DNA from: Acidobacteriota bacterium
Lineage (GTDB): Bacteria; Acidobacteriota; Holophagae; Holophagales; Holophagaceae
Assembly (NCBI GenBank): GCA_016192145.1
Contig: JACPUT010000008.1
Coordinates: 1 to 64,000 of the forward strand
Direction: 5' to 3'
DNA: 64,000 bases
The translations under genes were made by a program, and so were the position numbers. The notes beneath the pieces are model-generated. The model worked only from the letters and a program-made list of their open reading frames with translations. It was not told where the DNA came from and ran no database searches. Numbering within the stretch: the first letter of the stretch is position 1; each line of letters opens with the position of its first letter. Positions 9,681 through 61,414 of the stretch are shown here, in pieces.

Positions 9681-11741
9681 ATGGGAAGTCCAGGAAGCGG
9701 TCGTCACACGCACAGCAGGGTGGAGCCCCTCGAGGCCCTTCCCGAGGAGGAGCGTCGACGCATCGAAGCCCACCGGCGAGCCGAAGCCATCCTCGCCGAA
9801 CTTCCCAAGGATCGTCGCCTGAGGGTGGCCATGCTGGCCCAGCGGCTGGATCTCTTCGCGGCGGCGACCTTGCGGATCCGCACCAAGGACGGCGGCCCCC
9901 TCTGGCCCTTCGCCTTCAATCCGATCCAGATGGATTACCTCCGTTCCCTGCGTACCCGGTACGCCGTTTCCTCTGACCTGGACCGCTTCCGGAGGATCCG
10001 GGACCTCATCGTCAAGCCCCGCCAGTTGGGCTTTTCCACGTTCATCGCAGGGCTTTTCTTCTTCGACGGTTTCCTAGAGCCGGGCCGCATCACCGTGGTG
10101 CTCACCCACAAATCCGAGTTGTCTCAGGAATTGCTGCGTACCTACGGGACCTTCCTGGAAGGGCTTCCCGACGAGCTGCGCCACGCGGTGCGCCGCGTGA
10201 GCGACTCAAAATACCAGCTGGAGCTGGAATTCAAGGCGGGCTCCGACGACGATCCGCCCTCCCGCTTCGTCATCGCGACGGAAGCGGGGGAGCCCTGGCG
10301 AGGGGGCGTGATCCATAACCTGCACGCGTCCGAAGCGGCCTGGTACAAGGACTGGGCGGCCTTCAAGGCCTCCTTCGTGCAGGCGGTGCCGAAGGAGGGG
10401 AATGTGGTCTTCGAGACCACGGCCAACGGCTTCAACCCCTACTACCAGGAGGTGCAGGACGCCCTGGCCGGGGTCTCGGACTACCGCGTGGTGTTCTACG
10501 CCTGGTACAAACACCCGGAGTATCGCCGTTTCTGGGATCCGGAGCGCCATGACCTGCCGTCGCCTGAGGAGCGGCAGGTCATGGCGGAATTCGCCCTCGA
10601 CCTGGAGCAGCTCGCCTGGCGGCGCTGGAAGCAGGGCGAACTGCGGGGGCTATACCTGCAGGAATACCCGGAAACCCTGATGGGGGCCTTTCTCACCAGC
10701 GGCCGACCCATCTTCGACCTCGCCGCCGTGACACGCGGACTCGAACGGGCGAAGCAGGTGCCTCCCCCAACCACGCCCCGAACCGGCGTCCGGATCTGGG
10801 AAGCACCCATCCCTGGGGAGCTGTATCTCCTTTCCAGCGACGTCTCGGAAGGGCTGGACCGGGGTGAGGGCAGCTCCACAAACCCCGAGGCGGGCGGTAC
10901 CGACTTTTCCGCCGCCTACGTATGGCACGTCCGCACCCTGCGGGCGGTGGCCGCGGTGCATGGGCGCATCCCACCCGTGGAATACGCGCGGATCCTTGAC
11001 CGGCTGGGTCGTCGCTATGAGGCTGTGGTGGCGGTGGAGCGCAACAACCACGGCCACACCGTGCTCGCGGCCTTGGAGGAGGCGCGCTACCCCGAACTCT
11101 ATCGCCACACGGAGTACAACCAGCAGACGGGCGCGCGCTATCTGGCGCCAGGCTTTCCCACGAACCAAGTGACGCGGCCTCTGGCCATCGACGCCCTGGA
11201 CGAGGCGATCCGTCGAGATGCCTTGCAAGTGCCAGATGAGCGCTTCTGGACCGAATGCCACGCCTTCCACCGCAACGAGCGCGGCAAACCCGAGGCGCTG
11301 CCCGGAAACCACGATGACCGTGTGCTCGCAGCGGGCATCGGCGTCTACCTCTGCACCCTCGGCCGCGGTGCCTGGGGCATCGAAGGGGTGGAGGGGGCCG
11401 ACGGGGCGGGCTTTCCGCGACATCCTGCTCCGCCGGACTGGTCGTCGGCGGGTATGCGCGGTCAGGGGCCCTGTCAACCCGGGCCCGCGGCGGAACACGT
11501 CCCTTCGGGTTCCTTTCATACTGTGCTTCAGCAGGTCACCCACCCGCTGGTCGAGGCTCGAAACCTTAGCTGCGGGACCTGCCAGGCCTTCCAGGCAGGG
11601 TCGGCTTCAGCCTGCCAGGCCCACCGCTGCGCGGTCCGGGCCGTGGATCCCCCCTGCGCCCTCTATGCCCCCCTCCCGGATGGAGAGGAGCCCGAGGGGT
11701 GGGAAGGTGAGTTCTCCGAGGACTTGCCATGGAAGCCTTAG
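9681..11741 (+). CDS. Terminase large subunit with Cys-rich C-terminal tail
   Basis: This 686-aa protein shows the packaging ATPase and nuclease. A variant Walker A, KPRQLGFST, lies at residues about 112-120, and a Walker B-like segment, HNLHASEAAWY, near 210. The nuclease acidic motifs include SSDVSEG (about 390) and VAVERNNHG, and a C-terminal NHDDRVLA is typical of TerL nucleases. It cuts and pumps DNA into the prohead through the portal. The last 60 residues are unusual: CGTC...CxxHxC...PPC, a cysteine cluster that could bind zinc and is not part of a standard TerL. The start is ATG 9681 with AGGAG 12 bases upstream. It overlaps the portal gene by 13 bases. Confidence 0.88.
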   Translation: MGSPGSGRHTHSRVEPLEALPEEERRRIEAHRRAEAILAELPKDRRLRVAMLAQRLDLFAAATLRIRTKDGGPLWPFAFNPIQMDYLRSLRTRYAVSSDLDRFRRIRDLIVKPRQLGFSTFIAGLFFFDGFLEPGRITVVLTHKSELSQELLRTYGTFLEGLPDELRHAVRRVSDSKYQLELEFKAGSDDDPPSRFVIATEAGEPWRGGVIHNLHASEAAWYKDWAAFKASFVQAVPKEGNVVFETTANGFNPYYQEVQDALAGVSDYRVVFYAWYKHPEYRRFWDPERHDLPSPEERQVMAEFALDLEQLAWRRWKQGELRGLYLQEYPETLMGAFLTSGRPIFDLAAVTRGLERAKQVPPPTTPRTGVRIWEAPIPGELYLLSSDVSEGLDRGEGSSTNPEAGGTDFSAAYVWHVRTLRAVAAVHGRIPPVEYARILDRLGRRYEAVVAVERNNHGHTVLAALEEARYPELYRHTEYNQQTGARYLAPGFPTNQVTRPLAIDALDEAIRRDALQVPDERFWTECHAFHRNERGKPEALPGNHDDRVLAAGIGVYLCTLGRGAWGIEGVEGADGAGFPRHPAPPDWSSAGMRGQGPCQPGPAAEHVPSGSFHTVLQQVTHPLVEARNLSCGTCQAFQAGSASACQAHRCAVRAVDPPCALYAPLPDGEEPEGWEGEFSEDLPWKP

Positions 11742-13576
11742 CTCGCTTCGAGCCGAGTCTTCCCGCCGGATCGCCCTTCGCCCACCTCGGAGTCGCGGCA
11801 GGCGTGGCCTATCATCCCCTCGCCCCCGCGGATGAAGTTGAAGACGCGAGCCAGGAACTGCTGGGCCTTTACGGCTCCGCGCTGCCCGACCTGGGGACCG
11901 AAGTGGGTCTCCTCGTGCGGGACTGGGTGCGCCTGGAGGAGGCGGAGCGGCTGGGAAACCGCCTCCTGGCGAAGGCCCTGCGGATGGTGCACCCCGGGGC
12001 AAAAGAGGCGAAGGCGCGGACGGAATCCCTGCTGGCCTCCGCGCAGGGACAGGGCCGGTGGCTCCGGAAGCCCGGCCTCTCCTTCGAGGCCCTGCGGCAG
12101 GCTGTGCGCCGCATCGAGGTGGCCCAGGCCTTCCACCGCACCCGGCGCCGACAGGTGCTGCGCTTTTCGGAGCCCTCCCAGAAGGACGACGTGGTGGGCT
12201 TCCGGCTCCGCCACCAGGATCCCAATCACGTCCTGTCCCAGGACGAGTCCGCCTACCTGGAATGGCTCACCTCCTTCCTCCTCAGCGGCGGGCGCGAGTT
12301 CCGCACCCTGCCGCGGCGGAAGCTCGGGCGGGTGGGCCTCCGGACCTTCCTGGCCCAGCTGGTGGACGACGCCCTGACCCTGGACCATGGCGCGGTGGAG
12401 ACGGTACCTCTTCGGGGCATGGAGGGGCTCGACGCGTTCTTCGTGCGGGACAGCGCCACCTTCTTTCTCGCGGGCCAAAGACAGGGCGCAGGTGACCTCT
12501 TTGCGATCCAGGTGGCTGCAGGCTTGGAGGAGATTCCCTTCCGCTACGAGGAGCTGGCGCTCTTCCAGCGGAATCTCTCACCGGAGATCGACCGCAACGG
12601 TTACGGCCATTCAGAACTGGAAGCGGGCGTGGACACCCTATCGGCCTTCGTGGAGGCGCTGACCTACACCCGTCGGGGGTTGGATGAGAACGCCATCCCC
12701 AAAGGCATCCTCACGGTCTTCGGGGACTTCGATCGGCGCACCCAGCAGACCTTCATTTCCGCCTGGCAGGCGAAGCTCCGAGGGGTCTCCAACGCCTTCG
12801 CCCTGCCGGTGCTCTTTGCCCGGAAAGGTCAGGCGGCGGCCCAGTTCACCCAGACCGGCGCGCCCTTTTCCGAGATGGCCTTCGCCAAGTGGATCAGCCT
12901 GCAGGCCTCGATCCTGGGGGCGATCTACGGGATAGATCCGCGGGAGGTGGGCATCGAGGGGTTCTCCGCGGACAAGGCCACGCTCTCCGGAGACGACACG
13001 GCAGAACGGCTCGCGTCCTCGCGGGATCAGGGACTGGAGCCCTTCCTGGCTGATCTCGAAGGTTTCCTCAGTGACGACCTGCTCGGACGCTTCGCACCCT
13101 GGGTGCGCTTCAGCTTCACGGGCCTGCGCGCGGGAGACGAGAAGGCGAAGCGCGAGCTGGAGGCGCGGGTCAGCACCCTCAACGAGTTGCGTGCGTCCTT
13201 GCAGATGCCTCCCCACCCCTTGGGCTGGTTCGGAGACCTCCCGGCCGATCCGAATCTGCTCTCCGCCGAGTTCCAGCGCCTCCAATCGGTGCTGACCTTC
13301 GACGAGGCCCGTCGTGTCTGGGGCGGCCTGCCGGCCTTCCCGGAGGCGAAAGTCGGAACCACACCGATGAATCCCACCCTGGGAAGCGCCTGGCAGCAGG
13401 CGACGGCGCCGGATCCCGGGCCCATGGGATGGAACGGAGAGGGCGACCCCTTCGACGCCTTGGGCGAGGACTCGGAGGAAGCCGCCGAGCCGGAAGGCCA
13501 CGACCCACCGGGCCTTCGGGAGGACATGTCAACCCATCTCCGGCGATTCAGGAACGAGGAAGGAGCGGACGCATGA
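11729..13576 (+). CDS. Phage portal protein
   Basis: This 615-aa protein lies directly after the large terminase and before the MuF-like protein, the standard portal position. Its features fit portals of the HK97/DUF935-like type. They are a helical N-terminal region, a YGHSELE segment followed by long helices, and a central FSADKATLSGDDTAE stretch. The C-terminus is acidic, Pro/Glu-rich and probably disordered. The portal forms the dodecameric ring at one capsid vertex through which DNA passes. It overlaps the next small gene by four bases (ATGA). No motif alone proves the family; context and length carry the call. Confidence 0.75.
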   Translation: MEALARFEPSLPAGSPFAHLGVAAGVAYHPLAPADEVEDASQELLGLYGSALPDLGTEVGLLVRDWVRLEEAERLGNRLLAKALRMVHPGAKEAKARTESLLASAQGQGRWLRKPGLSFEALRQAVRRIEVAQAFHRTRRRQVLRFSEPSQKDDVVGFRLRHQDPNHVLSQDESAYLEWLTSFLLSGGREFRTLPRRKLGRVGLRTFLAQLVDDALTLDHGAVETVPLRGMEGLDAFFVRDSATFFLAGQRQGAGDLFAIQVAAGLEEIPFRYEELALFQRNLSPEIDRNGYGHSELEAGVDTLSAFVEALTYTRRGLDENAIPKGILTVFGDFDRRTQQTFISAWQAKLRGVSNAFALPVLFARKGQAAAQFTQTGAPFSEMAFAKWISLQASILGAIYGIDPREVGIEGFSADKATLSGDDTAERLASSRDQGLEPFLADLEGFLSDDLLGRFAPWVRFSFTGLRAGDEKAKRELEARVSTLNELRASLQMPPHPLGWFGDLPADPNLLSAEFQRLQSVLTFDEARRVWGGLPAFPEAKVGTTPMNPTLGSAWQQATAPDPGPMGWNGEGDPFDALGEDSEEAAEPEGHDPPGLREDMSTHLRRFRNEEGADA

Positions 13577-13770
13577 AACCGTGCAAGAACCCCACCTGTG
13601 ACGAGATCCGGGCTGCCGCCCTCCAGGTTGGCGGCGTCTGGGACACCCTCCTGGCCTCGGCCGCCGCCGGGGATCCAGACGCCCAGGGTGTCTTGCGGCA
13701 CCTCGAGAATGCGCCCCAGGTGCTCGACGGCCTTAGGCGCCTCGCGGAGGCTCTGGGTGAACTCGTCTGA
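13573..13770 (+). CDS. Small hypothetical phage protein
   Basis: The protein is 65 aa, starts MKPCKNPTCDE and is otherwise helical and Ala/Leu-rich. The two nearby cysteines are not enough to claim a metal site. It is coupled by ATGA to the portal gene, and its end overlaps the GTG start of the MuF-like gene, so it looks like a genuine link in the head operon. It was probably missed in longer-ORF scans. Function unknown. Confidence 0.55.
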   Translation: MKPCKNPTCDEIRAAALQVGGVWDTLLASAAAGDPDAQGVLRHLENAPQVLDGLRRLAEALGELV

Positions 13771-14713
13771 ACGCGGCGCTCTGCACCTCTGGTCGCCCAA
13801 TCCCGATCGGGCCGTGGCGACGATCGAGGCGGACCTCTACCGGCCTGGCTTTCACTTCCTGGCGCGGCTCTATGGCGCTGCCCTGGGAGTGCCCGCGCCG
13901 CGGCGTTTACAAAAGGCCCTTGGGGATCCTCGGGAGTTACGCCCACCTGGGTGGGGCGAACTGGCCCGGCTCTTTCGCGCGGGCGCTTCTCCAGAGCAGC
14001 TCGTGGCTCGCTGGCAGGTGGTCGTGGACCGCCTGGCGGATCACCTGCTACCCGACCGGACGAAGGAGGAACTGGCGACGCGCACGGCGATCCGGACCCA
14101 TCTCTACGGCCGCGTGCGGGCCCGGGTCGGTGAGGCCCTTGAGGGAGCCACCAACGTTGGCGTCCCCACGGGAATGTCCGCCCTCGCCCGAGAATCCCAG
14201 GCCTGGACGCGTCTGAAGCTCCTGGAGGGAGTGCGGGATCTGGACCACCATGCTCGACGCGCCGTTGTCGAGACCTTCCTCCATTCCCGAGAAGCCGGAG
14301 AAGATGTGAAGGCTCTCCAGCGGAAGCTCTTCGATCGTTTCTCAGAGCAGAATCGCGATTGGCGCCGCCTGGCGCTCACGGAGACGGCTGCCGCCGTCTC
14401 AAACGGCACCCTCGTTGCCGTGGATCCCGAGGAGGGATGGGAAGCCGAGTGGGTGGCTTCTCCCACCGCCTGCGCCTGGTGCCGCCGCTGGCACGGGCAG
14501 AGCTTCCGGGTGATGAGCCCAGAGGACCCTCGCAAGGACGGCCAGCGCGAGGTGTGGCCCGGAAAAAGCAACCTGGGCCGGTCCCCGAGTCCGCGAAGGC
14601 GCGATGGCCATCTCCGAGGGGAAGCGGAGCTTTGGTGGCCTGCTCAGCCCTGCCACCCCAACTGCCGGTGCCAGTGGGTGATGCGGCGGGCGTTCAGTTT
14701 GCCGGTACCCTGA
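13757..14713 (+). CDS. MuF-like minor head (head morphogenesis) protein
   Basis: The protein has 318 aa, counted from a GTG at 13757. The C-terminal half carries the MuF/SPP1-gp7 pattern: LTETAAAVSNGTL, then a CAWC motif, and near the end HPNCRCQW, the signature His-x-Asn-Cys-x-Cys of this family. MuF proteins sit on the portal inside the head and often mark the place where phages carry internal or ejected proteins. The long minus-strand genes just downstream fit that pattern. It overlaps the preceding gene by 14 bases. Confidence 0.82.
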   Translation: MNSSERGALHLWSPNPDRAVATIEADLYRPGFHFLARLYGAALGVPAPRRLQKALGDPRELRPPGWGELARLFRAGASPEQLVARWQVVVDRLADHLLPDRTKEELATRTAIRTHLYGRVRARVGEALEGATNVGVPTGMSALARESQAWTRLKLLEGVRDLDHHARRAVVETFLHSREAGEDVKALQRKLFDRFSEQNRDWRRLALTETAAAVSNGTLVAVDPEEGWEAEWVASPTACAWCRRWHGQSFRVMSPEDPRKDGQREVWPGKSNLGRSPSPRRRDGHLRGEAELWWPAQPCHPNCRCQWVMRRAFSLPVP

Positions 14714-14740: not shown

Positions 14741-15682
14741 TTAATTCCCGGATGGCACCATCACTTGTTCGATGAAGGCTGAGCCCATATGGTTCTCGAT
14801 GATTTTGAGGGCAGGGGTGGATGACAAAGTGTGGACGCATGCGTGATGAACCGTCAGGACGGCCTCCTGAAGGTCGTCTGCCCCCTTCGCCTCAAGGGAC
14901 TCGATTACCAGACCGATGGCCTGGGCCTTAGCTTTCGAGATGTGCCTCGCATGGGACTTGGTGATGGCGTGGTCTCCCAATTCCTCAACTACCTTTTTGG
15001 CCTTGGATTTCGCACCCCGCTGTCCCTGGAACATTCGGTTCTCCAGCCAGGTCGCCACGATTTCCTGGCTCATATGGGTTGCTTTCATGCACTCCCCGAT
15101 GAGGCTGGGCGTGTATTTGGCGATGATGGGCTGCCAGAGTGGAATCCTGGATGGATCCTGAGCAATCTCCTTCGCGGCCTGTTCAAACTCTTCCAGGATG
15201 CCATGGGCCGGAAGCCCTCCAATCTGAGGGTCGATTGGGCCAAGGCTCGATTGATCGCCCATCAGGATCCGATTGGCTGCGCACGCGATCATGGTGCCTG
15301 CAGACATGGCAATCTGGGGAACGACCACACGGATGTCCGCGAATTTCGCGTGCAGGTAGTCGACCAGGGACTCTGTTGCCGCCAGATCGCCGCCGGGGGT
15401 ATGCAGCAGAAGGTCGAGCCCCTTGGAGCGATCCAAGCGATGGATGACGGCCATGAATCCGTTCTTGTCTCCATCATGGATGCTGAAGTCCCTCCCATGG
15501 CTCCGTTGGAGATCCATCTTTTGGAGCCATCCACTATAGTAAATGATCGTATTCCGGCCAGTGACCTCATGAAGTTTAATTAGGGCTTCCCTTCGGACCT
15601 GATCGAAAGCCGCATGCTGCAGGATTTGGCCCTGCTGGATGTAGGTCCTTATTTGGGCATTCAGGTCGTGCCAGTTCCCCAT
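14741..15682 (-). CDS. SDH_sah / ClpP-class serine protease-like protein
   Basis: The protein is 313 aa. HTPGGD near residue 95 forms the oxyanion loop, MSAGT carries the predicted nucleophile Ser127, and SSLGPIDPQ follows at about 143. This is the signature of the SDH_sah (PF01972) serine dehydrogenase proteinase family, related to SppA and ClpP. No signal peptide or obvious membrane helix is seen, so it is probably cytoplasmic. It is transcribed against the phage head genes, together with the small gene upstream (TGATG junction at 15682). A role in phage assembly is unlikely; it is better viewed as a cargo cassette. Substrate unknown. Confidence 0.82.
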   Translation of the reverse strand: MGNWHDLNAQIRTYIQQGQILQHAAFDQVRREALIKLHEVTGRNTIIYYSGWLQKMDLQRSHGRDFSIHDGDKNGFMAVIHRLDRSKGLDLLLHTPGGDLAATESLVDYLHAKFADIRVVVPQIAMSAGTMIACAANRILMGDQSSLGPIDPQIGGLPAHGILEEFEQAAKEIAQDPSRIPLWQPIIAKYTPSLIGECMKATHMSQEIVATWLENRMFQGQRGAKSKAKKVVEELGDHAITKSHARHISKAKAQAIGLVIESLEAKGADDLQEAVLTVHHACVHTLSSTPALKIIENHMGSAFIEQVMVPSGN

Positions 15683-15951
15683 CAACGACCCTCGAACACG
15701 GACGCGGAAGTGTCAGTGTATCGGGACCGGGACATCAATGCGCCGGTCTTAGGGTCCCTTAAAGGAGGGAATGGATCCAGTTCCGGTGCTTGAACCACCG
15801 GAACATATGGGGAGTATTTGGCCATTTCCTTGAAGACCTTATTCACTTGGGCCAAGTCAAGGGGCTTCTCGGCTTTCCTTGCTACCACGGCGGCCTCCTG
15901 TTGCCATTGTAGGTGTTTTTCAGAGGAAGGTAACACATCCTTCTTTCTCAT
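15682..15951 (-). CDS. Small partner protein upstream of the SDH-type protease
   Basis: The protein is 89 aa, charged and helical in the first half (LQWQQEAAVVARKAEKPLDL), with a Pro-rich middle and a Ser/Thr-rich end. I do not recognise a family. Its stop overlaps the start of the protease gene, so the pair is translated together. A small charged protein in front of a protease gene could be an adaptor, an inhibitor or an antitoxin, but nothing in the sequence proves this. Confidence 0.6.
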   Translation of the reverse strand: MRKKDVLPSSEKHLQWQQEAAVVARKAEKPLDLAQVNKVFKEMAKYSPYVPVVQAPELDPFPPLRDPKTGALMSRSRYTDTSASVFEGR

Positions 15952-16284: not shown

Positions 16285-16584
16285 TCACGGTCCGCCTTCC
16301 TCCTTGATGGCTTCTACTCCATCGTCGTTCCGCCCCCCGGAACTCACTGGCGTTCCGAAGCAGCCGCTGGCCTCCTGAAGTGACGACAATGCTATTTGTT
16401 CCTGCGTCCAGGGACCGAGGGTGGCCTCGCTCATGCGTTCCGGCGCCTCCTGAAGTGGGTGGCGGAAGTGGTCGATCCCATCGGTGAGCATCTGGTGAAG
16501 CAAGTGCTCTGTGCTTAGGGTTTCGGCCTCGATTTCCGCGAGCAGGTAATGGGCCTGGGACAAGGGATCCCCGTCGTGCTTCAT
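16285..16584 (-). CDS. Hypothetical protein downstream of the helicase gene
   Basis: This 99-aa protein starts MKHDGDPLSQAHYLLAEIEAE. The first half is helical and acidic with several His residues, and the second half is Gly/Ser-rich. Its ATG overlaps the stop of the large helicase gene (ATGA), which is the main reason to accept it as real. No family recognised. It is probably translated with the two large minus-strand genes. Confidence 0.55.
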   Translation of the reverse strand: MKHDGDPLSQAHYLLAEIEAETLSTEHLLHQMLTDGIDHFRHPLQEAPERMSEATLGPWTQEQIALSSLQEASGCFGTPVSSGGRNDDGVEAIKEEGGP

Positions 16585-19500
16585 GCGGCCTCCGTCTGAT
16601 TGCGACGCGCCCGGACGGCGGCCAGGCGTTCTGCGAGGCCGCTGTCGTCGAGATACCCTTCCGGGCTTTGGAAGAGGTTCGCCAGGACTTCCTTGCGTTT
16701 CACCCGATCGCGCGCCGCCCGATCGAAGGAGTGGTCCGCGAGGAGGTTGATGATCTCCACGTTCTCGGTCTGGCCCAGGCGGTGGATCCGGGCGGAGCGC
16801 TGCTCGTGGGTCTTGTAGGTCATGGGCTGGTCGTGGTGGATGAGCACCTTCCCGCGCTGGAGGTTCACGCCGGTGGCGCCGGCATCCGAGAGCACGATCA
16901 CGTCGGCCTCGGGGCTGCCGCCCCCTTCAGGTTGGAAACGCGCCACCTTGCCGGCCTTCTCCTTCGCACTGTCCTTGCCGGTGACGCTCACGGCCCGGAT
17001 GCCGGCGGCTTCCAGTCCCTGATGGATGGTCTCCACCGCCTGGAGGTTGTGGGCAAAGATCACGACCGGCTTGCCCTCGGCCAGACGGTCCCGGGCGATG
17101 CGGATGTGTTCCGCGATCTTGGGGCTGGAGGGGTGGACGTGGAGGATGCGGTTCTGCGCCGCTTCCCGGAACGTTCCCACCGCCTTGCGAATCCCTTCTG
17201 CGATGGGCGCGTGATCGGCTTCCGCCTTGCCCTCGAAGGCCTCCGGGGCCAGCTGACGGGCCCACTTCATGGAGTCGGGAGCCCGGGTCTGGAGCTTGGC
17301 GGAGGCCTGCTCCACCCGATCCAGCTCGGCCTGTTGCTCCGGGCTCACCCCCACGTTCACGTCGCGGTGGCTGGCGCCGACGCCAGGGTGGACGCGCTCC
17401 GCAAAGAAGTACCGGCTCAACTCCAACTTCAAACTTCGACGACTGAGGGCCGTGTCCACACCAAAACGGCGGAGGAACTCCTCCCGGGCCTGGGGCGGGT
17501 ACCGATCGGGATCGATCTTGTGGAGCCAGTCGAAGGCTTCGCTCGCGTCGTTCTTGACGGGGGATCCAGTGGCGCCGACGTAGCGTTCGGCGGCGTGGCC
17601 ATTGGCGTCCACCAGCCGTGCCAGAGTGGAGTCGGGCTTGCCCTTGCGGTTCAGGGCGTCGTGCCCCTCGTCCACCATCAGGGCGTGGACGTCCACGCCG
17701 TGGGCCGCCCAGGCGGCCTTCAGGGCCTCCGCCAATGCCTTCGGCGCGGCCTGCTTCACCCAACTCCGCGTGACGTCTGGCGCCTCGCCTCGGTGTTGGG
17801 CGAGCACCTTGAGGCTGTCGTCCCGCAGGGCCTGGTGGGTCACCACCACCGCGTGGGTGCCGGGATCCCGGTAGGCCTGCAGACGCTCCTCGAAGCCAGC
17901 GCCGGGGCGGGCGTGGACCTGGATGCCGGCCTTGGGATCCAGGAGTCGGATGGCCTCGGCGCCGAACTGGGCCTGGACGATGCTCGGTACGGCCAGGATC
18001 GCCTTCACGTGGCCGTGCCGCGCCTGGTGCAGCTCTCCGAGGGCCCCGAGCAGGATGGCCGTCTTTCCCGATCCCGCGCCGTAGAAGAGACCCAACCGTT
18101 TGAGCCGGGTGATGGCCTTCACCGCTCGCTGCTGGTTCACGAAACGCCCCGACATGGACATCCCCTCCCGGATGTCCACGGGCTTGGAGCTTGAGAAGGC
18201 CGCGGCGGCGGTGGGCATGGCGGCGCGGATCTGGTTCTCCAGCCTTTCACCCAAGGCCATTCGTTCTCCGGGACGCAGGTCCAGCTTGGGAAGGCCCTCC
18301 ACGCCATCCGGGTCGACCTCGTCGCCGAACAGCGAGCCCTGGGCCTGGGCCGCGGCAGCCTTCCGAGCGCGGGCTTCCTCCAGCTGGTCCTTCACCGTTC
18401 CGGCGGCGTATCGCCCGGACAGGTCCCGCTGGCGGAGCCGGTCCAGCTCCTGCTGGCGGGTTTGGCGGTACAGGGCCTTTTGCGCTTCGGTGCCCGTGGC
18501 GGAAAGAAAGGCCTCCGCGCCGCGGATGGGCAAGGCGCCTGTTTTGAGGCCGTGGCCCGTCAGGCGCTCATGGTGGGCCTTGAAGCGCTCCAGGAAGCGG
18601 GTCCGCATGGTGTCCTGAACCGCGTGGGTGGCCTCCTTCAGCCCCCCCATGGCTTGGACATAATCCGCCCACGGGGAGGATGCGCCCGCCTGATGTTGCT
18701 CTAGGACGGCCTGCCGCCGGGCCCTCCAGGCCTGCCAAATCGGTGATTCGATGGGTTCCAGATCCCCGAAGAGCCCGCCGCCCTCGTCGAATTTCTCGGG
18801 CTCGGGCCCGATGGCTTCGAGCGCCTTCTGCAGCCGCTGATGGGCCTCCTGGGCGTTGCCAAGGCTTTTCTTCGCGATCTCGCGGTAGAAGAAGTCCCGG
18901 ACCATGCCCTGCTGGACGCTGGTCAGCTCTCCCACCGGGAGGAAGGCGGCCTGGGTGCGGGGAGCTTCCGCCAGGGTCCGGTGCAGGGCTTCATGGAAAT
19001 CCGGGTGGTCCGCATCCAAAGACTGGGCGTGAAGGGCCGCGCCGCCGGGGAGCCCACGCTTGGCCAGGGTACGTTCGGCCAGGCGCTGGAAGGCGGGCAG
19101 GAACTCCTCCGCGCGACGCAGGCGGGTTTTGGGGATGGGCGCGCCCTTGGTGTCGAGGACGAGGTGGCCCTCCCGGTCCCGCTCGTAGAGGGGCTTGCCG
19201 TTGGGGGCTCGGACGACCTCCCGGAGGGGAAAGACCTTTTGGACTTCGCCCAGGTAGGGTCCCCACAGCGATTCCGGAACGCGGTCCGCCAGGGTTGTGG
19301 CGCTCATCAGGTCGGTCAGGATATCCGCAGGCCGCTCGCCGTCGGCAATCCGTTCTCCCACGTGATCCTCGATGGCCTCTCGGATCGCGAACGGTTCGGC
19401 GTCTTCGAACACATCGAGCTTTCGCCGAAAGAGCGGCGGCTCCATCAGGGGGTTGTCGTAGCGGGAGGCGCTACGTCGGGCGAAGCCCGCCGGGAGCCAC

Positions 19501-21398
19501 CCCTCCCGATCAAGTTGGCCGCGCTTGATCGCCAGAGCCAACTCCCGTTCGGCCCCCATGGCCGGGTCCACGGGGCGGACGAGGCGGTCCATTCCGGAAC
19601 GGTGGAGGGTGAGAAGCCCTTCGCCGTTTTCATGCTCCAGGGAGAAGTCCTCCTCCTGGAGGCCCAGGGCATGGGCGCTCAGCAGGGCCTGCTCTGGGCT
19701 GAGCCTGCCCATTGGAACGGTGAGCGTGTCACGCGGCGTTTCGCCGAGGGCCGCGATGAGGGCGGCGCGGGCCTCCAGGCGTCCCAGCGTGCCGCCCAGG
19801 GTCCGCCGCGCCTCCTGGAGGAGGGCGAGGCGGTTGCGCTGAAGGTGAGCGGCGACGGCAAGGTCCCGGGGCGTCCGGGCCAGATCGGCCTGGACTTGGT
19901 GGGCCTCCGCGCGGAGGCGCCGGGCCTCTTCCGTGACTGCGGGAAGGTCATGCGCTTGTTCGCGAAGGTGCTGTTCTTCCAATGCCGTGAGGATCTCGGC
20001 TTGCTCCTCGGGGGTGAACATTCCGCGGAAGGCACGGGCCGTAACCTGAGCGGCACCCTCGGGTCCGAGCACCTCCACGGCCTCTCGTTCGATCACGCCC
20101 TGTCCGAGGGCCGCGAGGGCCGCCTCATGCAGGGCGTCGAAGGCGCCGGTTCCGCGCAGCGCGTGCAGACCCTCCTCCGAAGGCACCTGGGAGGGGTTCA
20201 GAGATTCCTCCAGAGGGTGGGTCCCCTCCACCTCGTCGAGAAAACCCTGCACATGCCGCGTGAGCATCCGTTGGTGGAGGTCTTCCACCAACCCTTCCTC
20301 AACCTTCTCGGAGCTGGCGAGTGGGAAACCCGGAAGGAAGGTGCGTTCGCCGGGATTCCGCGTGGCGGCGTAGGCTTCCCGCAGTGCCTTCCGTGCGCGG
20401 AGGATGGCGCCCAGCTGTTCGTTCTGGGTGACGGCGTCTTGGAGGGCCTTCCGAATCGCCTGCGCGTGGGCGTCCTTCAGAGCCTTCGCATGCAGGTGCG
20501 CCTCTCGGGCGGCCTCGCCCCGCGCGGCGCCGAGGATTTGGAGGCCGACGAGAGGATCACCCTGGCCCGCGTGGACATGGGCATCCGAAAAACGACCCTC
20601 GTCCACGCGCTGCTGGAGTTGGGCCTCGCGAAGCTGTTGGACCTCTCCGGCGAGCCTCTCCCCTGTGAGGCCTGCAGCCTCTGCCCGCGCCCGAAGCGCC
20701 CGGTCGTAGCCGGAACCCTTTGAATCCGGAGCTGCAAGGACTGCGTCGATGTCGAGCCCTGGCGCATTGTCGAGTGTGGGGCCGATCTGCTGAAGGCCAG
20801 CGGCGGTTCGGATATCGGCGTCGAGGAGGAGCTTCTTCTCAGCGTCCTTCGCCGCCCGAAGTGCGTGCGCGAGCAGTTCCCGGTGGTGCTTGGCCTGGGC
20901 CAGGGCGGCGGTCTTTTCGTCCGTGTCCTCGCCCAGGGGCAATTCCACGTGTTCCTTCGGAACCCCTTGGGCGCCGAGCACCGTGTCGATGAAGGCCCTC
21001 TCCGCGTAGCGGCGGGTGTCCCGGGCCCCTTCCTTGGCGGCTTTGGCTTGGGTGCGTTCCTCCGGGCTCTGCAGGGTCTGCCGGGCCCGTTGTTCCGCCA
21101 GGCGGGCGCTTCGCCGATCTTTCATCTCCCGGGCGTAAGTAGCCGGGTCCTTCACGCCCACGAGCCGCAGGCCGTTGAGCTTGCCCCCGGCGCCGCCCAC
21201 CACGTGGTAGACGCCCTTCTGCCCCGGTACGGGGCGGATGAGGACGGGATGTCCCGGTGTCTCCGGTCCCCGGGGATGCACGGTGATCCAGCGGGATCCG
21301 TCCGGCTCCGAACTAGCCTTCAGGAGGGGCCGCACGTCCTCCCAGCCGGCCACCGCCAGGGATAGGATTCGGCCGTCGACCTCGCGGCAGGACAGCAT
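16581..21398 (-). CDS. Giant phage protein with C-terminal SNF2-type SF2 helicase
   Basis: The protein is 1605 aa. The first 1050 residues are largely helical, charged and Ala/Arg/Glu-rich, with no domain I can name. Residues about 1070-1590 form an SF2 helicase of SNF2 type. They carry Walker A GAGSGKT (about 1107-1113), a DEGH box (about 1241-1244), GATGSP (motif III), VIFAH, a GVNLQ segment and the QRSARIHRLGQ motif VI typical of Swi2/Snf2 proteins. I see no NPPY/DPPY methyltransferase motif. Its position beside the MuF gene, on the opposite strand, and its size fit a polyvalent protein packed in the head and injected with the DNA (as P1 DarB is), or a replication helicase. The start ATG overlaps the upstream gene's TGA. 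Confidence 0.8.
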   Translation of the reverse strand: MLSCREVDGRILSLAVAGWEDVRPLLKASSEPDGSRWITVHPRGPETPGHPVLIRPVPGQKGVYHVVGGAGGKLNGLRLVGVKDPATYAREMKDRRSARLAEQRARQTLQSPEERTQAKAAKEGARDTRRYAERAFIDTVLGAQGVPKEHVELPLGEDTDEKTAALAQAKHHRELLAHALRAAKDAEKKLLLDADIRTAAGLQQIGPTLDNAPGLDIDAVLAAPDSKGSGYDRALRARAEAAGLTGERLAGEVQQLREAQLQQRVDEGRFSDAHVHAGQGDPLVGLQILGAARGEAAREAHLHAKALKDAHAQAIRKALQDAVTQNEQLGAILRARKALREAYAATRNPGERTFLPGFPLASSEKVEEGLVEDLHQRMLTRHVQGFLDEVEGTHPLEESLNPSQVPSEEGLHALRGTGAFDALHEAALAALGQGVIEREAVEVLGPEGAAQVTARAFRGMFTPEEQAEILTALEEQHLREQAHDLPAVTEEARRLRAEAHQVQADLARTPRDLAVAAHLQRNRLALLQEARRTLGGTLGRLEARAALIAALGETPRDTLTVPMGRLSPEQALLSAHALGLQEEDFSLEHENGEGLLTLHRSGMDRLVRPVDPAMGAERELALAIKRGQLDREGWLPAGFARRSASRYDNPLMEPPLFRRKLDVFEDAEPFAIREAIEDHVGERIADGERPADILTDLMSATTLADRVPESLWGPYLGEVQKVFPLREVVRAPNGKPLYERDREGHLVLDTKGAPIPKTRLRRAEEFLPAFQRLAERTLAKRGLPGGAALHAQSLDADHPDFHEALHRTLAEAPRTQAAFLPVGELTSVQQGMVRDFFYREIAKKSLGNAQEAHQRLQKALEAIGPEPEKFDEGGGLFGDLEPIESPIWQAWRARRQAVLEQHQAGASSPWADYVQAMGGLKEATHAVQDTMRTRFLERFKAHHERLTGHGLKTGALPIRGAEAFLSATGTEAQKALYRQTRQQELDRLRQRDLSGRYAAGTVKDQLEEARARKAAAAQAQGSLFGDEVDPDGVEGLPKLDLRPGERMALGERLENQIRAAMPTAAAAFSSSKPVDIREGMSMSGRFVNQQRAVKAITRLKRLGLFYGAGSGKTAILLGALGELHQARHGHVKAILAVPSIVQAQFGAEAIRLLDPKAGIQVHARPGAGFEERLQAYRDPGTHAVVVTHQALRDDSLKVLAQHRGEAPDVTRSWVKQAAPKALAEALKAAWAAHGVDVHALMVDEGHDALNRKGKPDSTLARLVDANGHAAERYVGATGSPVKNDASEAFDWLHKIDPDRYPPQAREEFLRRFGVDTALSRRSLKLELSRYFFAERVHPGVGASHRDVNVGVSPEQQAELDRVEQASAKLQTRAPDSMKWARQLAPEAFEGKAEADHAPIAEGIRKAVGTFREAAQNRILHVHPSSPKIAEHIRIARDRLAEGKPVVIFAHNLQAVETIHQGLEAAGIRAVSVTGKDSAKEKAGKVARFQPEGGGSPEADVIVLSDAGATGVNLQRGKVLIHHDQPMTYKTHEQRSARIHRLGQTENVEIINLLADHSFDRAARDRVKRKEVLANLFQSPEGYLDDSGLAERLAAVRARRNQTEAA

Positions 21399-23296
21399 CA
21401 CGCGCCCGGTGACTCCGCCGTCGTAGAACGAAGGCCCTCGAACATCCCGAGGACCGCCTCGTGGCCGCCGGACGCGTTGGCCACCGTCTGCCGGATCGAC
21501 TCGGCATCGCAGCCCGCGTTTCGGGCTTCACGGCACGCATCCCGAAAGGGATTCGCTTCCGTCAGGTCCGACAGGGCCTTCAGCAGGTTCCGGGCCTCCT
21601 GGCGGGCCCCGTTCAGGGCCAGAGTGGCGTGGTGAAGGCGCGTGCGTGCGTGACCGGCGTCGAGGCTTGGCAGGGACTTCTTCACGTCGCGACCGCCCTC
21701 CCGCTCGCGAAGCTCACGGGCGTAGTCGTCCACCCGGAAGTGTCGCCAGTTCGATCCCTTCGGGTCCATCCATTGCTTGAAGTGCTCGACCCGCGTCTCG
21801 TGGGGGATGGCGCGGTGGGCCTCCTGCCAGGCCTTGGCGCCGGCATCCTCGTCTTTTTCGAGCAGGGTATTCGCCTCGCGGGCCTTTTCCTTGGGAATGT
21901 GCTGGTCCAGCTCATCCATCACCCACCGGCCCGACCGCCCGTGCAGGAAGGCCGTCGCCTGGTGCTCGTCCAGGCCGTGGTGGTTCGCGGCCTCGGCCAC
22001 CGCCCGGTCGATCTCGGCGTGGTAATTCGCGTGGCCGAAGGTGCCGAAGCCCGCGTAGTCCTCATGGTTCCCGAGCTTGGCGATGGATTCGGGCGTGTGG
22101 GGGCCATTGGGCTTTGGGGGTTCAGTCCCCCCCGCTGACGAGCCCTTCAGTTCCGTCGCCTTCCGCGAGTGGTGAATGGCGGATTCGGTGTGGTGATCCT
22201 GGGCCTTGCTATGACTCGAATAGTAGAGGCCTCCCTTGCGGCTGTTCTTGGCAATCTCGTGCGCCTGGGCTGCTTCCCAATGGGCATCCGATGCCACCTG
22301 GTGATGCTCAGGTGAACGGGAGTCCTCAGCGATCTGACTGGCTGCTCGCGCCTCCGCCGTTGCGTCATGGAAGTTGAGCTTGACCTTCTGCCCCTGGCGC
22401 AGGATGGCGGCTTGCACCTTGGGAGCCTGCAGACCTGCGCCGTAGGCCTTCGCGGCCGGATGGTTCCGGTCGAGGGCACGGGCGAGGGTTGGCCTCGACT
22501 TCCCTTCGGGCTTGGGTTCCTCTTTCGGCTTGGCGATTCCGGCTTTCTCGGTGGCCTCGGATTCGCGAGGTGCCTCTGCCTGCTTCAGGTGTTTGTCCCG
22601 GATCGGTGCATGGTGCTCCCGGTCCCCGCCGACCTTCTTTCCGTGCTCGATCAAGGCGTCCGCGTGGGCGTGGATGGGCGGGGTTGCCGCAGGTTGACCA
22701 ACCTTACCTTTCCCTTTGGCCTCGCTCGCGGCCTTGTGCCGGGCTTGGTTCGTCTCCTGGTGTGCCTCGGCCACGGTGGCATGCGCTGGCCCTTTCAGAC
22801 TCCATTCCTTCTGTCCCTTGCGGTGCCCCTCCAGGTATTCGATCTCGTGCCACGTCCCGCCGTGCTTCTCCTCCGTAGTGCCCGTGTACCTGGCCCGATC
22901 TCCCTTGTGGAAGAAATGGCCGCCATTCGGGCCCGCTTTCTCGTTCCCATCTCCCGCCCTTGCGCCTAGCTCCTGCAGGATGGTCGCGGCTTGAGTGGGA
23001 TCCGTTACATGGAAGTGGTCGTAGGCCCCCACGCGGCCGTGATGGGTGGCGCCGCGACGGCGCTTCTCCAAAGGGATGCTGTGCTTCTCGGCAGCGGCCT
23101 GGATGGTCTTGCTGTCTTCCGCATCCGTGGCGCGCAGGTAGGTGGTCCCATCGTGGTGGCGGCCCATGGCGGTGCGCTCGTGGAGGCCCGCAGGCTGGCC
23201 GTCGGGACGCGTGTCGTCGTGCTCGGGCACATAGACGATCTTTCCGCCGAGGTTCCGATAGTAGGCCTTGATGTGGGCCTTCATGAGTGGGCGCAT
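21398..23296 (-). CDS. Large hydrophilic phage protein, possibly virion-internal
   Basis: This 632-aa protein is very rich in His, Ala, Glu and Lys. Several stretches between residues 180 and 400 look disordered, and the C-terminus is helical. The N-terminus MRPLMKAHIKAYYRNLGG, with a following EHDDTR, resembles the start of other phage proteins encoded near capsid genes. No catalytic motif seen. I chose the ATG at 23296 (GGAGAG upstream) over a TTG at 23338. It is co-transcribed with the helicase gene (TGATG junction) and divergent from the prohead protease. Composition and partners suggest a protein co-packaged in the head. Confidence 0.6.
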   Translation of the reverse strand: MRPLMKAHIKAYYRNLGGKIVYVPEHDDTRPDGQPAGLHERTAMGRHHDGTTYLRATDAEDSKTIQAAAEKHSIPLEKRRRGATHHGRVGAYDHFHVTDPTQAATILQELGARAGDGNEKAGPNGGHFFHKGDRARYTGTTEEKHGGTWHEIEYLEGHRKGQKEWSLKGPAHATVAEAHQETNQARHKAASEAKGKGKVGQPAATPPIHAHADALIEHGKKVGGDREHHAPIRDKHLKQAEAPRESEATEKAGIAKPKEEPKPEGKSRPTLARALDRNHPAAKAYGAGLQAPKVQAAILRQGQKVKLNFHDATAEARAASQIAEDSRSPEHHQVASDAHWEAAQAHEIAKNSRKGGLYYSSHSKAQDHHTESAIHHSRKATELKGSSAGGTEPPKPNGPHTPESIAKLGNHEDYAGFGTFGHANYHAEIDRAVAEAANHHGLDEHQATAFLHGRSGRWVMDELDQHIPKEKAREANTLLEKDEDAGAKAWQEAHRAIPHETRVEHFKQWMDPKGSNWRHFRVDDYARELREREGGRDVKKSLPSLDAGHARTRLHHATLALNGARQEARNLLKALSDLTEANPFRDACREARNAGCDAESIRQTVANASGGHEAVLGMFEGLRSTTAESPGA

Positions 23297-23414
23297 GGAT
23301 TCTCTCCGGGGAACGAACACTACCTGGACCGTTTCCAAGCATCCAGGCGAGGCGCGGCCATCCTCCGGAAGCCCCTACAGCAGGAAGACCGGTAAGGGCG
23401 GGGCATTCGGAACC

Positions 23415-24299
23415 ATGCCGAGCGTCGCCATGCTCGCCCTCATGATCGAAGCCGCGCCCATGAAGGCCAGCACCCTCTCCTTGGTCCCATTCCTGCAGCC
23501 AGGAAGAGGACGCGCGGTGCCCATCCGCATCGAGGCGGGGCGGCTCTTCATGAAAGCGACGCCGAGCCTGGAAGGGGGACGTCGAGTCGTCTACTTCGAG
23601 GCTTCGAAGGAGACCCGCGACTTCCAGGGCGAGCGGGTGCTGACGAAGGCCCTGGCGGAATCGATCCCCTACTTCCTGGCCCACGGACGCATCGACCTAG
23701 ACCACGGGAGCGTCACGGGCTCCGTTCGCGGGCGGAGCGTCAATCCCTACGCGATGATCATTGGCCGCCCCCTGGAAGCCCGTGCCGCCGGGGATGGCGT
23801 GTGGGTCAAGGCCCAGATCCTGAGCCTGGAGGATCCGCAGAGCGACTGCGTGGCGATGGCCGACTACTTCTGGGACACGCTGCGGGCCCAGCCTTCCATT
23901 CCGTGGTACCCAAGCATCCACGGTCTCGTCCTGAACGAGGATGAGGTGGTGGAGGAGGGCGGTGGCCCCACGCGGGAGATCCGGCGCCTTCTCTGGCAAT
24001 CCGTAGCTTTCACGCAAACGCCCGTCAATCCAGCTGTCTCCCCGGTCTCTACCGTGCCTTTGCGGACCTTCGCCAAGGCCTTTGAGGACGGGAGTCTGGA
24101 CGACCTGCTTCGCGGGATTCCTTCCACCGGGGATCCGTTTCTTGCCCAGGGAACGGATGCGGGGGAGATCGACGTCCTCGGCATTCTCTGGGCCCTGGCC
24201 TCGGGTCTGGCTTCCCCTTCCGATCCCTTTGCGCTGACCGACGAACGCTTCCCCCGAGAACACGTCTCGGCCGTCCTCAGCGCCCTCGTCGACCTGTAG
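23415..24299 (+). CDS. Prohead protease-like maturation protein
   Basis: The protein has 294 aa. The central region YFEASKETRDFQGERV, followed by IDLDHGSVTGS, resembles prohead serine proteases. These have an N-terminal strand in which the protein recognises its own altered state, then a catalytic His (here His in DLDHGS, about residue 97) and a later Ser. The last 100 residues are a linker-rich tail. It lies immediately upstream of a scaffold-like gene and the capsid gene, the normal order protease-scaffold-capsid. The exact catalytic Ser is not certain. The start at 23415 was chosen from several in-frame ATGs and may be off by some codons. Confidence 0.7.
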   Translation: MPSVAMLALMIEAAPMKASTLSLVPFLQPGRGRAVPIRIEAGRLFMKATPSLEGGRRVVYFEASKETRDFQGERVLTKALAESIPYFLAHGRIDLDHGSVTGSVRGRSVNPYAMIIGRPLEARAAGDGVWVKAQILSLEDPQSDCVAMADYFWDTLRAQPSIPWYPSIHGLVLNEDEVVEEGGGPTREIRRLLWQSVAFTQTPVNPAVSPVSTVPLRTFAKAFEDGSLDDLLRGIPSTGDPFLAQGTDAGEIDVLGILWALASGLASPSDPFALTDERFPREHVSAVLSALVDL

Positions 24300-24307
24300 G
24301 AGGTCCC

Positions 24308-25042
24308 ATGGATCTGGCCGCCCTCACCGAAAAGGCGCGCGTCTTCTTGAAATCGCTGAACCGACCCTCCGCAGAAACGGAAAAGGAGCCGCCGGTGCCC
24401 GAGCCTCCACCCGATCCGGATCGCCTGGATCCCCGGGTGGAGGACGCCTCGCCGACACCCGAAGACGTGAAAGCCGCGAAGGCGCCCGCGACGGATGGCG
24501 GCGAAGGTGGAACCGAAACACCGTCGGCACCGGAGGGAACCAAGCCCGAGGAAACAAAGGAGGAGTCCTCGGAAGACTTCGACGTTTTCGGTAACCGCGA
24601 TCTGGAAGGCCGCGAAGTCCAGAAGGCGTTGCCACCCGTGGGCCATCCCGAACCTGGCGAATTGCCGAAGAGCTTCGACCCCGAGGATCTGGTCACTGAA
24701 CTCTTGCAGCAGGTCGGAGATCTCCAGGCTGTCGTGCGGGATTTGGTGGCGCAGATGGACGGTTTCAAACAGGGACAGATCGCCGCGGGCCGGGATCTCA
24801 AGAAAGCCCTCGACACGGGTCAGGAACTCCAGACCGCCCTCGCCAGGCTCCACGAGACGGTGCCGGCTGCGTCGACCCCCAAGGCCATCACGAAGGCTCT
24901 TCCTGACGCCGGGGAAAAGGTGGCGCCTCTTCTCACCCGGGCGGAACTCATGGTGCTCGCGGGTACTGGGCAGCTCACGCCGCTCGAGGTGGCCCGCCTC
25001 AACTCCCACCTTCAATCGCCCGCCCCTGAGGAGAACCGTTGA
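24308..25042 (+). CDS. Scaffold-like protein
   Basis: The protein has 244 aa. The first 100 residues are Pro/Glu/Asp-rich and disordered. Residues about 125-190 form a likely coiled coil (VTELLQQVGDLQAVVRDLVA). A short helical C-terminus follows. Capsid scaffolds are helical, acidic and placed right before the major capsid gene, as here. GGAGG precedes the ATG, and its stop overlaps the capsid start (TGATG). A tail or decoration role cannot be excluded. Confidence 0.55.
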   Translation: MDLAALTEKARVFLKSLNRPSAETEKEPPVPEPPPDPDRLDPRVEDASPTPEDVKAAKAPATDGGEGGTETPSAPEGTKPEETKEESSEDFDVFGNRDLEGREVQKALPPVGHPEPGELPKSFDPEDLVTELLQQVGDLQAVVRDLVAQMDGFKQGQIAAGRDLKKALDTGQELQTALARLHETVPAASTPKAITKALPDAGEKVAPLLTRAELMVLAGTGQLTPLEVARLNSHLQSPAPEENR

Positions 25043-26523
25043 TGGACGTACTTGCCGATGTTCTCGCTGTCCTGGAACAGGGCGATGGCCCCTTCCGGGA
25101 TATCGCCAAATCACTCTCCACACTGGGCGCGGGCACGGACCTGGCCGCCCTCTCCGGGGGCGGGGCCATGCGCGTGGAGGACCTGGATCCGGTGCTCTAC
25201 TCCGTCGCCGTCCAGAACAAGCACTTCGATCTGATCAACCGTCTGCTGCCCAGCAAACGAACCGTCTTCTCCATGCTCGATCAGCAGATCGTGAAGCGGG
25301 GCATCGGCGGATACCCGGGGAGCGCCGTGTCGGACGAGACCGCCACGGGTCGGCAGGCGAGCGTGAGCGACTACCGGCGCCTCGTGACGGAACTCGGGAT
25401 CTTCGTGGACTATCGCCACGTTCCCGTGGTCACCGCGATTCAGGGCGTCTTCCAGCAACGGGCCGGACGCATCGACACGAATCTGGTGGCCGAGGAGAAC
25501 GTCTCCGGATGCCTGGTGCTGCTGGAATCCGTGGAGCACGGCCTCCTCTACGGCGACCGGACCGTGAACCGCTTCGAGATCAACGGCCTCTCGACACGGA
25601 TCGGGCTGGAAGCCCCCGCCAACGTCCTGGACCTGCGGGGCCAGCCCCTCTCCAGCGCCACCCCCATCGCTCAACTGGCCACGCGTCTTACGAAGCGCCC
25701 CTGGTTCGGGCGCCCGGATCTCTTCTACGTCTCCGCCGGCGTCAAGAGCGACCTGGATGCGGAACTGGAACCGGGCTGGCGCGTGAACCTCGACAGTGGC
25801 GTGCCGAGCACCAATGTGGGCGTGCCCATCAAGGGGATCAACTACTCGGGTCTGGGGATCGGCCAGGGATACCTGGAATGTGTCATCCACGCCTATGTGG
25901 ACGAGGCCCGAACACCCATCGTCATCCAGAACTCGGAGGCGGTGGGGGGCCAGCCGGGGCCCTCCTTGGTGGCCACCGTAGCTCTTCCCGACACCGACCC
26001 CCTGGCGGTGCGTTCTCAATGGGAGGTGGACCAGGTGGGCAGCTACTACTACCTGGTGGAAGCCTATGCCGTGGGCGGGAAGGTGTCCCTCCCGGTTTCC
26101 GCGGTCAGCGCCGTGGCCGTTCCCGAACGGGGTGCCGCGCGGCTCGACATCACCCAGTCCCCCACCAATACGGAGACGCACTACAAGGTCTACCGCGGCC
26201 GACGCGGGGGGACGAACCAGCCTGAGGACGTGCGGCTGATCGGGAGCGTGCGCAAGGCTGAAGGTGCCGCCACCACGAGCTTCGTGGATCTGAACGCCGT
26301 GATCCCAGGAACCTCAGAGGCCCTCATGCTCACAGCCAATCCCAGCCAAGGGGCGCTCACCTGGATCCAGATGCTTCCCATGCTCCAGCTGCCCTTGGCC
26401 ATGCCGGACCTCAATTTCCGCTGGGCCGCGCTGCTGCTGGGGGCGCTCAGGCTTCCCGAACCCCGCAAGCACGGGCTCATTACCAATATTTTGCCCAAGG
26501 CGGCCGCCTGGCGGCCCTTTTGA
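25042..26523 (+). CDS. Major capsid protein with inserted Ig/FN3-like domain
   Basis: The protein has 493 aa. The N-terminal 40 residues are a helical arm, followed by an HK97-like body with VLYSVAVQNKHFDLINRLL and KRTVFSMLDQ. Residues about 315-430 look like a separate beta domain. SYYYLVEAYAVGGK, YKVYRGRRGG and TSFVDLNA have the spacing of a fibronectin type III or Ig-like fold, a known surface ornament of capsids. After it the chain returns to a capsid-like end. It is assigned from position after protease and scaffold, size and fold pattern. It assembles the icosahedral head. Confidence 0.72.
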   Translation: MDVLADVLAVLEQGDGPFRDIAKSLSTLGAGTDLAALSGGGAMRVEDLDPVLYSVAVQNKHFDLINRLLPSKRTVFSMLDQQIVKRGIGGYPGSAVSDETATGRQASVSDYRRLVTELGIFVDYRHVPVVTAIQGVFQQRAGRIDTNLVAEENVSGCLVLLESVEHGLLYGDRTVNRFEINGLSTRIGLEAPANVLDLRGQPLSSATPIAQLATRLTKRPWFGRPDLFYVSAGVKSDLDAELEPGWRVNLDSGVPSTNVGVPIKGINYSGLGIGQGYLECVIHAYVDEARTPIVIQNSEAVGGQPGPSLVATVALPDTDPLAVRSQWEVDQVGSYYYLVEAYAVGGKVSLPVSAVSAVAVPERGAARLDITQSPTNTETHYKVYRGRRGGTNQPEDVRLIGSVRKAEGAATTSFVDLNAVIPGTSEALMLTANPSQGALTWIQMLPMLQLPLAMPDLNFRWAALLLGALRLPEPRKHGLITNILPKAAAWRPF

Positions 26524-36674: not shown

Positions 36675-36693
36675 CCCGACCGGAGGCCACGCC

Positions 36694-61382: not shown

Positions 61383-61414
61383 CAATGGTCTCCCCTCTCA
61401 CGTACCGGCCCACC

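Follow-up and report, generated by a model that had tools for sequence, protein, structure and literature searches.

A SNF2-type helicase and its modular partner, encoded among prophage head genes, share a predicted prohead-protease site with the capsid proteins and are probable capsid cargo

Introduction

Why is a very large helicase encoded among the head genes of a prophage, and where might it act? The question is raised by a 64,000-nt stretch of DNA from an Acidobacteriota bacterium (the window, by which the whole stretch is meant) that holds a prophage and comprises bases 1-64000 of contig 6 of a 3.8-Mb genome. Another genome of this family shares 4476 bp at 100% identity with a contig of an Acidobacteria MAG, which places the host in an Acidobacteriota family. 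Phage proteins that are carried into the cell are usually known only from the proteomics of a few model phages. Here, the helicase, its partner and their relatives were analyzed together with the neighboring head proteins.

Results

The helicase locus

The plus strand of the prophage carries genes for the portal protein (11729-13576; phrog_12, 4e-23), a MuF-like minor head protein (13598-14713), the prohead protease (phrog_1028, 7e-10; 23412-24299 from one plausible start, in an ORF open from 23268), a protein in the scaffold position (24308-25042) and the major capsid protein (MCP; 25039-26523). An earlier note on this DNA had described a large SNF2 helicase and a 632-aa partner on the minus strand between the MuF-like and protease genes; these ORFs and their neighbors were confirmed. 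The helicase, HEL, occupies 16581-21401 (1606 aa from a GTG start, 1605 aa from the ATG at 21398), and the modular, His/Ala-rich partner, PART, 21398-23296 (632 aa from the ATG at 23296; a TTG start in the reading frame 21398-23338 would give 646 aa). The gene list can be extended, as the same minus-strand block also contains a 99-aa ORF (16285-16584) that overlaps the HEL stop by 4 bp, an 89-aa ORF, and a ClpP/SDH-like serine protease (14741-15685; phrog_11747, 2e-89). The stop of PART overlaps the GTGATG start of HEL, which suggests that the two genes are translationally coupled; no sigma-70-like promoter was found in the divergent region between PART and the prohead protease.

Of 74 loci, 62 have a small ORF directly after HEL, and sequence relatives of the 99-aa ORF are confined to the clade of the window. 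The ClpP/SDH-like protease is not conserved with HEL: among the fetched loci it was found in the window only, where it accompanies an unrelated prohead protease. Elsewhere in the window, upstream of the terminase, 7122-8513 (plus strand) encodes a ParB-like domain with a DNA methyltransferase (phrog_498, 4e-130); the prophage has a separate methyltransferase of its own. Next to the tail genes lies a gene (46017-49319, minus strand) whose 1101-aa product has Big_7 Ig-like repeats and, at its C-terminus, a Hint/pretoxin-Hint domain. Two genes on opposite strands (36613-40593, plus; 60258-61385, minus) both match PHROGs 857, 5982 and 10912 'kinase', and a QueC-like match near the contig start (1438-2691, minus; phrog_1550, 2e-8) may reflect 7-deazapurine metabolism.

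Architecture of the helicase

The C-terminal part of HEL (residues ~1063-1590; 16632-18215, minus strand) is a SNF2-type ATPase with two RecA-like lobes. The C-terminus matched Pfam Helicase_C (4e-11), and residues 1005-1583 matched PHROG 62 'DNA helicase' (5e-87). The Walker A sequence GSGKT (approximately residues 1109-1113) and the motifs DEGH and QRxxRIHRLGQ are conserved in the family, and helicase motifs I, II and VI are kept across its alignment. In-frame, intein-like inserts that begin with Cys and end with His-Asn were observed in some relatives: 366 aa at HEL residue 1110, inside the Walker A motif (P-loop), in loci L027 and L102, and 325 aa at residue 1147 in L033.

The N-terminal ~1050 residues are conserved along their whole length across the family. 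An AlphaFold2 model of residues 20-1075, built with 63 sequences (pLDDT 81), has a small beta module (RWITVHP..GGAGGKLN) followed by long helices. The module (RWITVHP..GGAGGKLNGLRL; residues ~34-90; 21131-21302, minus strand) is conserved in the family and forms beta strands in the model, and the conserved region that follows it (residues ~91-1062; 18216-21130, minus strand) is almost all helical. Fold searches with residues 20-1075 gave no PDB or BFVD match with E <= 0.001, and the best VIA-align result (Z 7.7) was to a helical stretch and within the tool's stated noise range. For this region, which according to the earlier note might hold new domains, the searches thus gave no known fold.

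No methyltransferase was detected in HEL by Pfam, PHROGs, NCBIfam or PADLOC, as had been proposed from the lack of a motif, and a Rossmann-like strand order was absent from the mostly helical model of residues 20-1075. SNF2 was the sole polyvalent-type domain that Pfam recognized in HEL of the window. When N-terminal segments of HEL were searched against the proteins of the loci, no protein other than HEL was matched, DarB-like proteins included, and the helicase part alone matched other proteins. The exceptions were a fragment of a HEL protein already in the set and a second HEL-like ORF in L098 (L098:465-3794; 1109 aa), which matched both N- and C-terminal HEL segments and is a shortened paralogue.

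A family of head-module helicases

Full-length or near-full-length relatives of HEL (33-35% identity) were found by tblastn in Bordetella phage PHB04, Morganella phage Mecenats66 and Thermus phages Lalka8, phiMa and Cumys, and a profile search yielded 20 loci from bacterial genomes and 80 or more from viral contigs. The alignment comprised 107 proteins, of which 78 were left at 90% identity, and these approximately 107 homologues span phages of several phyla. The common gene order, on a single strand, is portal, MuF, (DarB-like), HEL, small ORF, protease, scaffold, MCP and sheath; in phiMa and Cumys, HEL immediately precedes the genes for the protease and MCP.

HEL had been regarded as an insertion among the head genes, and this was not borne out. 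Across the 78 non-redundant loci, the protease is on the same strand as HEL in 57 and on the opposite strand in five, while 16 have no protease in the sequence examined; HEL is therefore on the head-gene strand in 57 of the 62 loci with a visible protease, at a median distance of 550 bp from it. The five exceptions (the window, L004, L036, L038 and L077) all belong to the window clade, whose HEL proteins are monophyletic (support 1.0), so that a single inversion explains the strand of HEL. HEL belonged to the head operon ancestrally, and its gene was inverted once, in the window clade.

Of 52 relatives for which 7.5 kb or more of upstream DNA was available, 27 have a gene for a separate DarB-like methyltransferase-helicase there, on the HEL strand; HEL does not in general replace DarB. 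N-terminal extensions of HEL relatives carry further domains: InPase (PF18823) in L004, L017, L036, L038, L040 and L102, ART-PolyVal (PF18760) in L017 and L032, LPD3 (PF18798) in L028 and, weakly, PBECR2 in L032.

A predicted prohead-protease site

Inspection of the HEL, DarB-like and PART N-termini revealed a recurring [ILVF]xK[AS] sequence directly before their conserved parts. In other phages, the prohead protease recognizes a fixed motif, at which both head proteins and internal proteins are cut (PMC10052503). The motif [ILVFM]-x-K↓[AS] (the arrow marks the predicted cleavage) was counted in the proteins of the loci and compared with shuffled sequences. Scaffold proteins contained 398 sites where 49 were expected, and proteases 374 (61 expected). 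The site was present in the first 120 aa of 63/63 capsid proteins (10 expected), in 43/45 MuF proteins (7.5 expected) and in 18/20 portal proteins (4 expected), and it was found in the N-termini of 71/85 HEL proteins (28 expected) and in 30/35 DarB-like proteins (12 expected). The controls differed: genes downstream of MCP (36/191; 31 expected) and TerL (1/8; 1.5 expected) were not enriched, and sheath proteins barely so (5/18; 2.5 expected).

Around the scaffold lysine, L, M or F was enriched two residues before, S or A directly after and L at the second position after. With the flanks fixed, K was the most enriched P1 residue in scaffold, protease, MCP, MuF, portal and HEL proteins, but not in tail genes; D outranked K in the DarB-like set, which is smaller. 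In HEL, the site was placed no more than 30 aa upstream of the Trp of WITVHP in 71 of 76 proteins (6.7 expected; no more than 15 in any of 200 shuffles), at a median of 9 aa, and it preceded the beta module in 20 of 24 proteins with long N-terminal extensions as well. In the window, predicted sites are L-Q-K↓A in the MuF-like protein, F-M-K↓A, L-T-K↓A and F-A-K↓A in the protease, five sites in the scaffold-position protein (0.5 expected) and I-A-K↓S at residue 24 of the MCP. HEL has L-L-K↓A at residues 26-29 (K28; 21315-21326, minus strand), 9 residues before the W of WITVHP, and PART has L-M-K↓A (K6 in the 632-aa numbering; 23276-23287, minus strand). The N-termini of the ClpP-like, 89-aa and 99-aa proteins lack the site, and these proteins are therefore not claimed as cargo.

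The motif was noticed post hoc and then replicated, and in most loci the gene starts were assigned mechanically. Because homologues are not independent, weight is placed on the occurrence of the site in about eight unrelated protein families and on a held-out set of 27 contigs, which were found via the protease and share less than 85% identity with the first set. In these contigs, the site was present in 25/25 MCPs (4.2 expected) and 22/22 scaffold proteins (142 sites; 17.9 expected), and the proteases held 132 sites (20.9 expected); genes after MCP were not enriched (13/82; 13.7 expected). In the annotated PHB04 genome, the site occurred in the first 60 aa of 11/15 genes from portal to MCP, compared with 13/101 elsewhere (Fisher p = 2.7e-6). 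In PHB04, enzymes that are not related to one another have such a leader: MKPILFLK↓AS in HEL, MIILLTK↓AQ in the DarB-like protein, VIVFLK↓AQ in a RelA/SpoT-like protein and VVLLK↓AD in an InPase-like protein. Taken together, these observations strongly imply that [ILVFM]-x-K↓[AS] is the cleavage site of the prohead protease.

The leader can also be read in individual genes of PHB04. The protein with leader VVLLK↓AD is ATI15646 (L127, 32601-33110; 169 aa), which is annotated as hypothetical and, by eye, continues as InPase-like sequence. Outside the head module, ATI15667 (L128, 48563-49318; 251 aa) starts MSTVILFLK↓SHVAGYMR..KPHERK, a full leader with the tag described below, and is predicted to be additional capsid cargo; ATI15671 matches the site but appears, by eye, to carry another kind of signal (Tat-like). 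In the alignment of the protease family, the C-terminus repeats the capsid N-terminal sequence KALEAGYGTD..LTGG.AL..QSL, perhaps as a mimic for autocleavage or targeting.

The partner protein and the tag

Behind the site, proteins that are otherwise unrelated share a tag of the HVxxYTRKDGTVVxxH type; in PART of the window, the tag HIKAYYRNLGGKIVYVPEHDDTR comes directly after the site. Among 1499 genes, the tag pattern was found 32 times (0.38 expected; at most 2 in any of 200 shuffles), each time on the same strand as HEL. In a gene set that differed slightly, a site (in a looser form) stood no more than 25 aa before the tag in 28 of 33 cases. Since the count of sites over whole PART sequences was only modestly raised (26; 15.4 expected), the case for PART rests on the site at the tag.

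PART homologues are encoded beside HEL in L004, L036, L037, L038, L077 and relatives. A tblastn search of the phage collection with PART gave no match, and its relatives came exclusively from loci retrieved by way of HEL and from a few genomes of the family. They are modular: an N-terminal domain that bears the tag is combined with a C-terminal module and with a His/Ala-rich helical module, which is repeated and present in several copies in L037, L004 and L077. One relative in L004 contains InPase. Some PART-like proteins have several copies of the site plus tag (L037:4919-8971, L004:6027-8750) and look like polyproteins. The AlphaFold model of PART has a mean pLDDT of 65, with an N-terminal alpha/beta domain and helical repeats. 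PART had been described as disordered, which fits the 179 of 632 residues with pLDDT < 50 but not the predicted domain and repeats. An ACT/ferredoxin-like assignment of the N-terminal domain (weak rows, Z ~6) and helical rows (up to Z 9.4) were not trusted.

Discussion

The shared site, the synteny, the architecture and the intact ATPase motifs are facts of sequence. They argue strongly that HEL and PART are packaged in the head, and probably the two proteins are capsid cargo that is processed by the prohead protease and ejected with the DNA, after which HEL would be a dsDNA translocase on the incoming genome. HEL and PART would be made together with the head proteins and brought into the prohead by their short N-terminal leaders. 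The prohead protease would then trim both at [ILVFM]-x-K↓[AS], as predicted for the maturation of scaffold, capsid, portal and MuF, and the trimmed proteins would remain in the capsid and leave with the DNA, by analogy with P1 DarB, T4 and SPN3US. The earlier proposal of a polyvalent-type, head-associated protein is supported by the polyvalent-domain fusions in relatives and by the predicted site shared with the capsid.

In the new cell, HEL would be an ATP-driven translocase on the double-stranded DNA. Its likeliest task would be to clear or block host complexes, those of restriction or others, by itself or together with a DarB-like methyltransferase, because SNF2 ATPases move on dsDNA and the DarB-type dyad protects incoming DNA (PMC5512222); an anti-restriction function, argued here from the fold class and company of HEL, is the least certain step and is possible, with a chance slightly below even. 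HEL might instead be packaged and ejected for another purpose, driving genome internalization as a translocase or, like RapA, remodelling RNA polymerase for early transcription. SNF2-type ATPases do translocate on dsDNA, a relative in bacteria, RapA, recycles RNA polymerase (PMC5512222), HEL has a weak match to the RapA model, and about half of the loci have HEL without a DarB-like protein. However, the match to RapA covers no more than the generic C-terminal lobe, and the same holds for matches to defense helicases; we consider these functions unlikely.

Replication proteins occur among the SNF2 helicases of phages, and DNA metabolism is the category to which PHROG 62 is assigned. HEL could be an ordinary replication or recombination helicase that lies by chance among the head genes and stays outside the virion. 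This is very improbable, as PHB04 and Lalka8, which encode both HEL and a DarB-like protein, have separate replicative helicases in their replication modules, the place of HEL in the head module is kept across distant phages, and HEL bears the predicted cleavage site of the capsid proteins. That site would put HEL in the prohead but not necessarily in the cell, and the P1 Dar proteins include head-size determinants (PMC9024508), which could make HEL a prohead component that serves assembly or DNA packaging and is not ejected. Against this, TerL is already present as the packaging motor, and the effector-type domains fused to HEL relatives (ART, InPase, PBECR2) make sense mainly in a host cell; a role confined to the prohead is thus quite improbable.

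The leaders of HEL and PART may belong to a modular delivery code, for which we see roughly even odds: on any protein of this phage lineage, a leader ending in [ILVF][LF]xK↓[AS], often with an HVxxYTRKDGTVV-type tag, would specify packing into the prohead and release by the protease, which would act as a polyprotein processor that frees effectors (ART, InPase, SNF2 helicase, DarB-like and RelA/SpoT-like proteins) for ejection. Such a leader, readable from sequence, would allow the injected arsenal to be predicted across a lineage with Proteobacteria, Thermus and Acidobacteriota hosts, and would account for the division of very large polyvalent proteins into functional units. A widespread and so far unremarked SNF2 ATPase would join the likely early counter-defense factors.

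Comparison with known systems

DarB of P1 sits in the virion head, and its first 30 residues suffice to send a reporter to the capsid (PMC9024508); a DarB-like protein was also detected in virions of a Bcep22-like phage by mass spectrometry (PMC9144972). Like DarB, HEL is a large SNF2/SF2 helicase encoded beside portal and protease genes, and in P1, too, the gene is on the opposite strand. Unlike DarB, HEL has no fused adenine methyltransferase, a distinction that the earlier note had drawn; in PHB04 and Lalka8, DarB-like proteins coexist with HEL. The alignment of the two is limited to the helicase part (hhalign probability 98). The view of HEL as a DarB that has lost its methyltransferase is rejected: HEL proteins conserve their N-terminal region among themselves, and this region matches no DarB-like protein. 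The N-terminus of P1 DarB differs from the HEL-type leader motif and, the sequences not being similar, was rejected as the same leader. No Ulx-like partner of HEL was found; the 99-aa ORF is ~10% identical to Ulx of P1 and Lalka8, and at such a length distant similarity is possible.

The 'putative helicase' of Thermus phages Lalka8, phiMa and Cumys (PMC11437467) is a full-length HEL homologue; in the part of that paper available, separate DarB and Ulx homologues are discussed and no discussion of the helicase was found. The sources consulted yielded no virion data for the HEL-bearing phage group. HEL shares the head neighborhood and a SWI2/SNF2 domain with the polyvalent proteins of Iyer et al. 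2017 (PMC5512222), and its relatives with InPase, ART-PolyVal, LPD3 and (weakly) PBECR2 fusions extend the likeness; HEL of the window itself consists of a helicase and one region without a recognized domain. Autoprocessing by a metallopeptidase was proposed for polyvalent proteins (Iyer et al. 2017, PMC5512222), whereas the enzyme predicted to process HEL is the prohead protease.

The internal head proteins of T4 have a capsid-targeting N-terminal propeptide that is cut by the prohead protease, and the cargo stays in the head. The SPN3US prohead protease cuts at an AXE motif, and its substrates include ejection proteins (PMC10052503). HEL resembles such cargo in having an N-terminal propeptide that ends in a predicted site common to the phage's own scaffold and capsid. 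It differs in that P1 of [ILVFM]-x-K↓[AS] is K rather than Glu, and in that the predicted cargo includes SNF2 helicase, DarB-like, RelA/SpoT-like and InPase-like proteins. The putative cleavage-site motif is the main new result.
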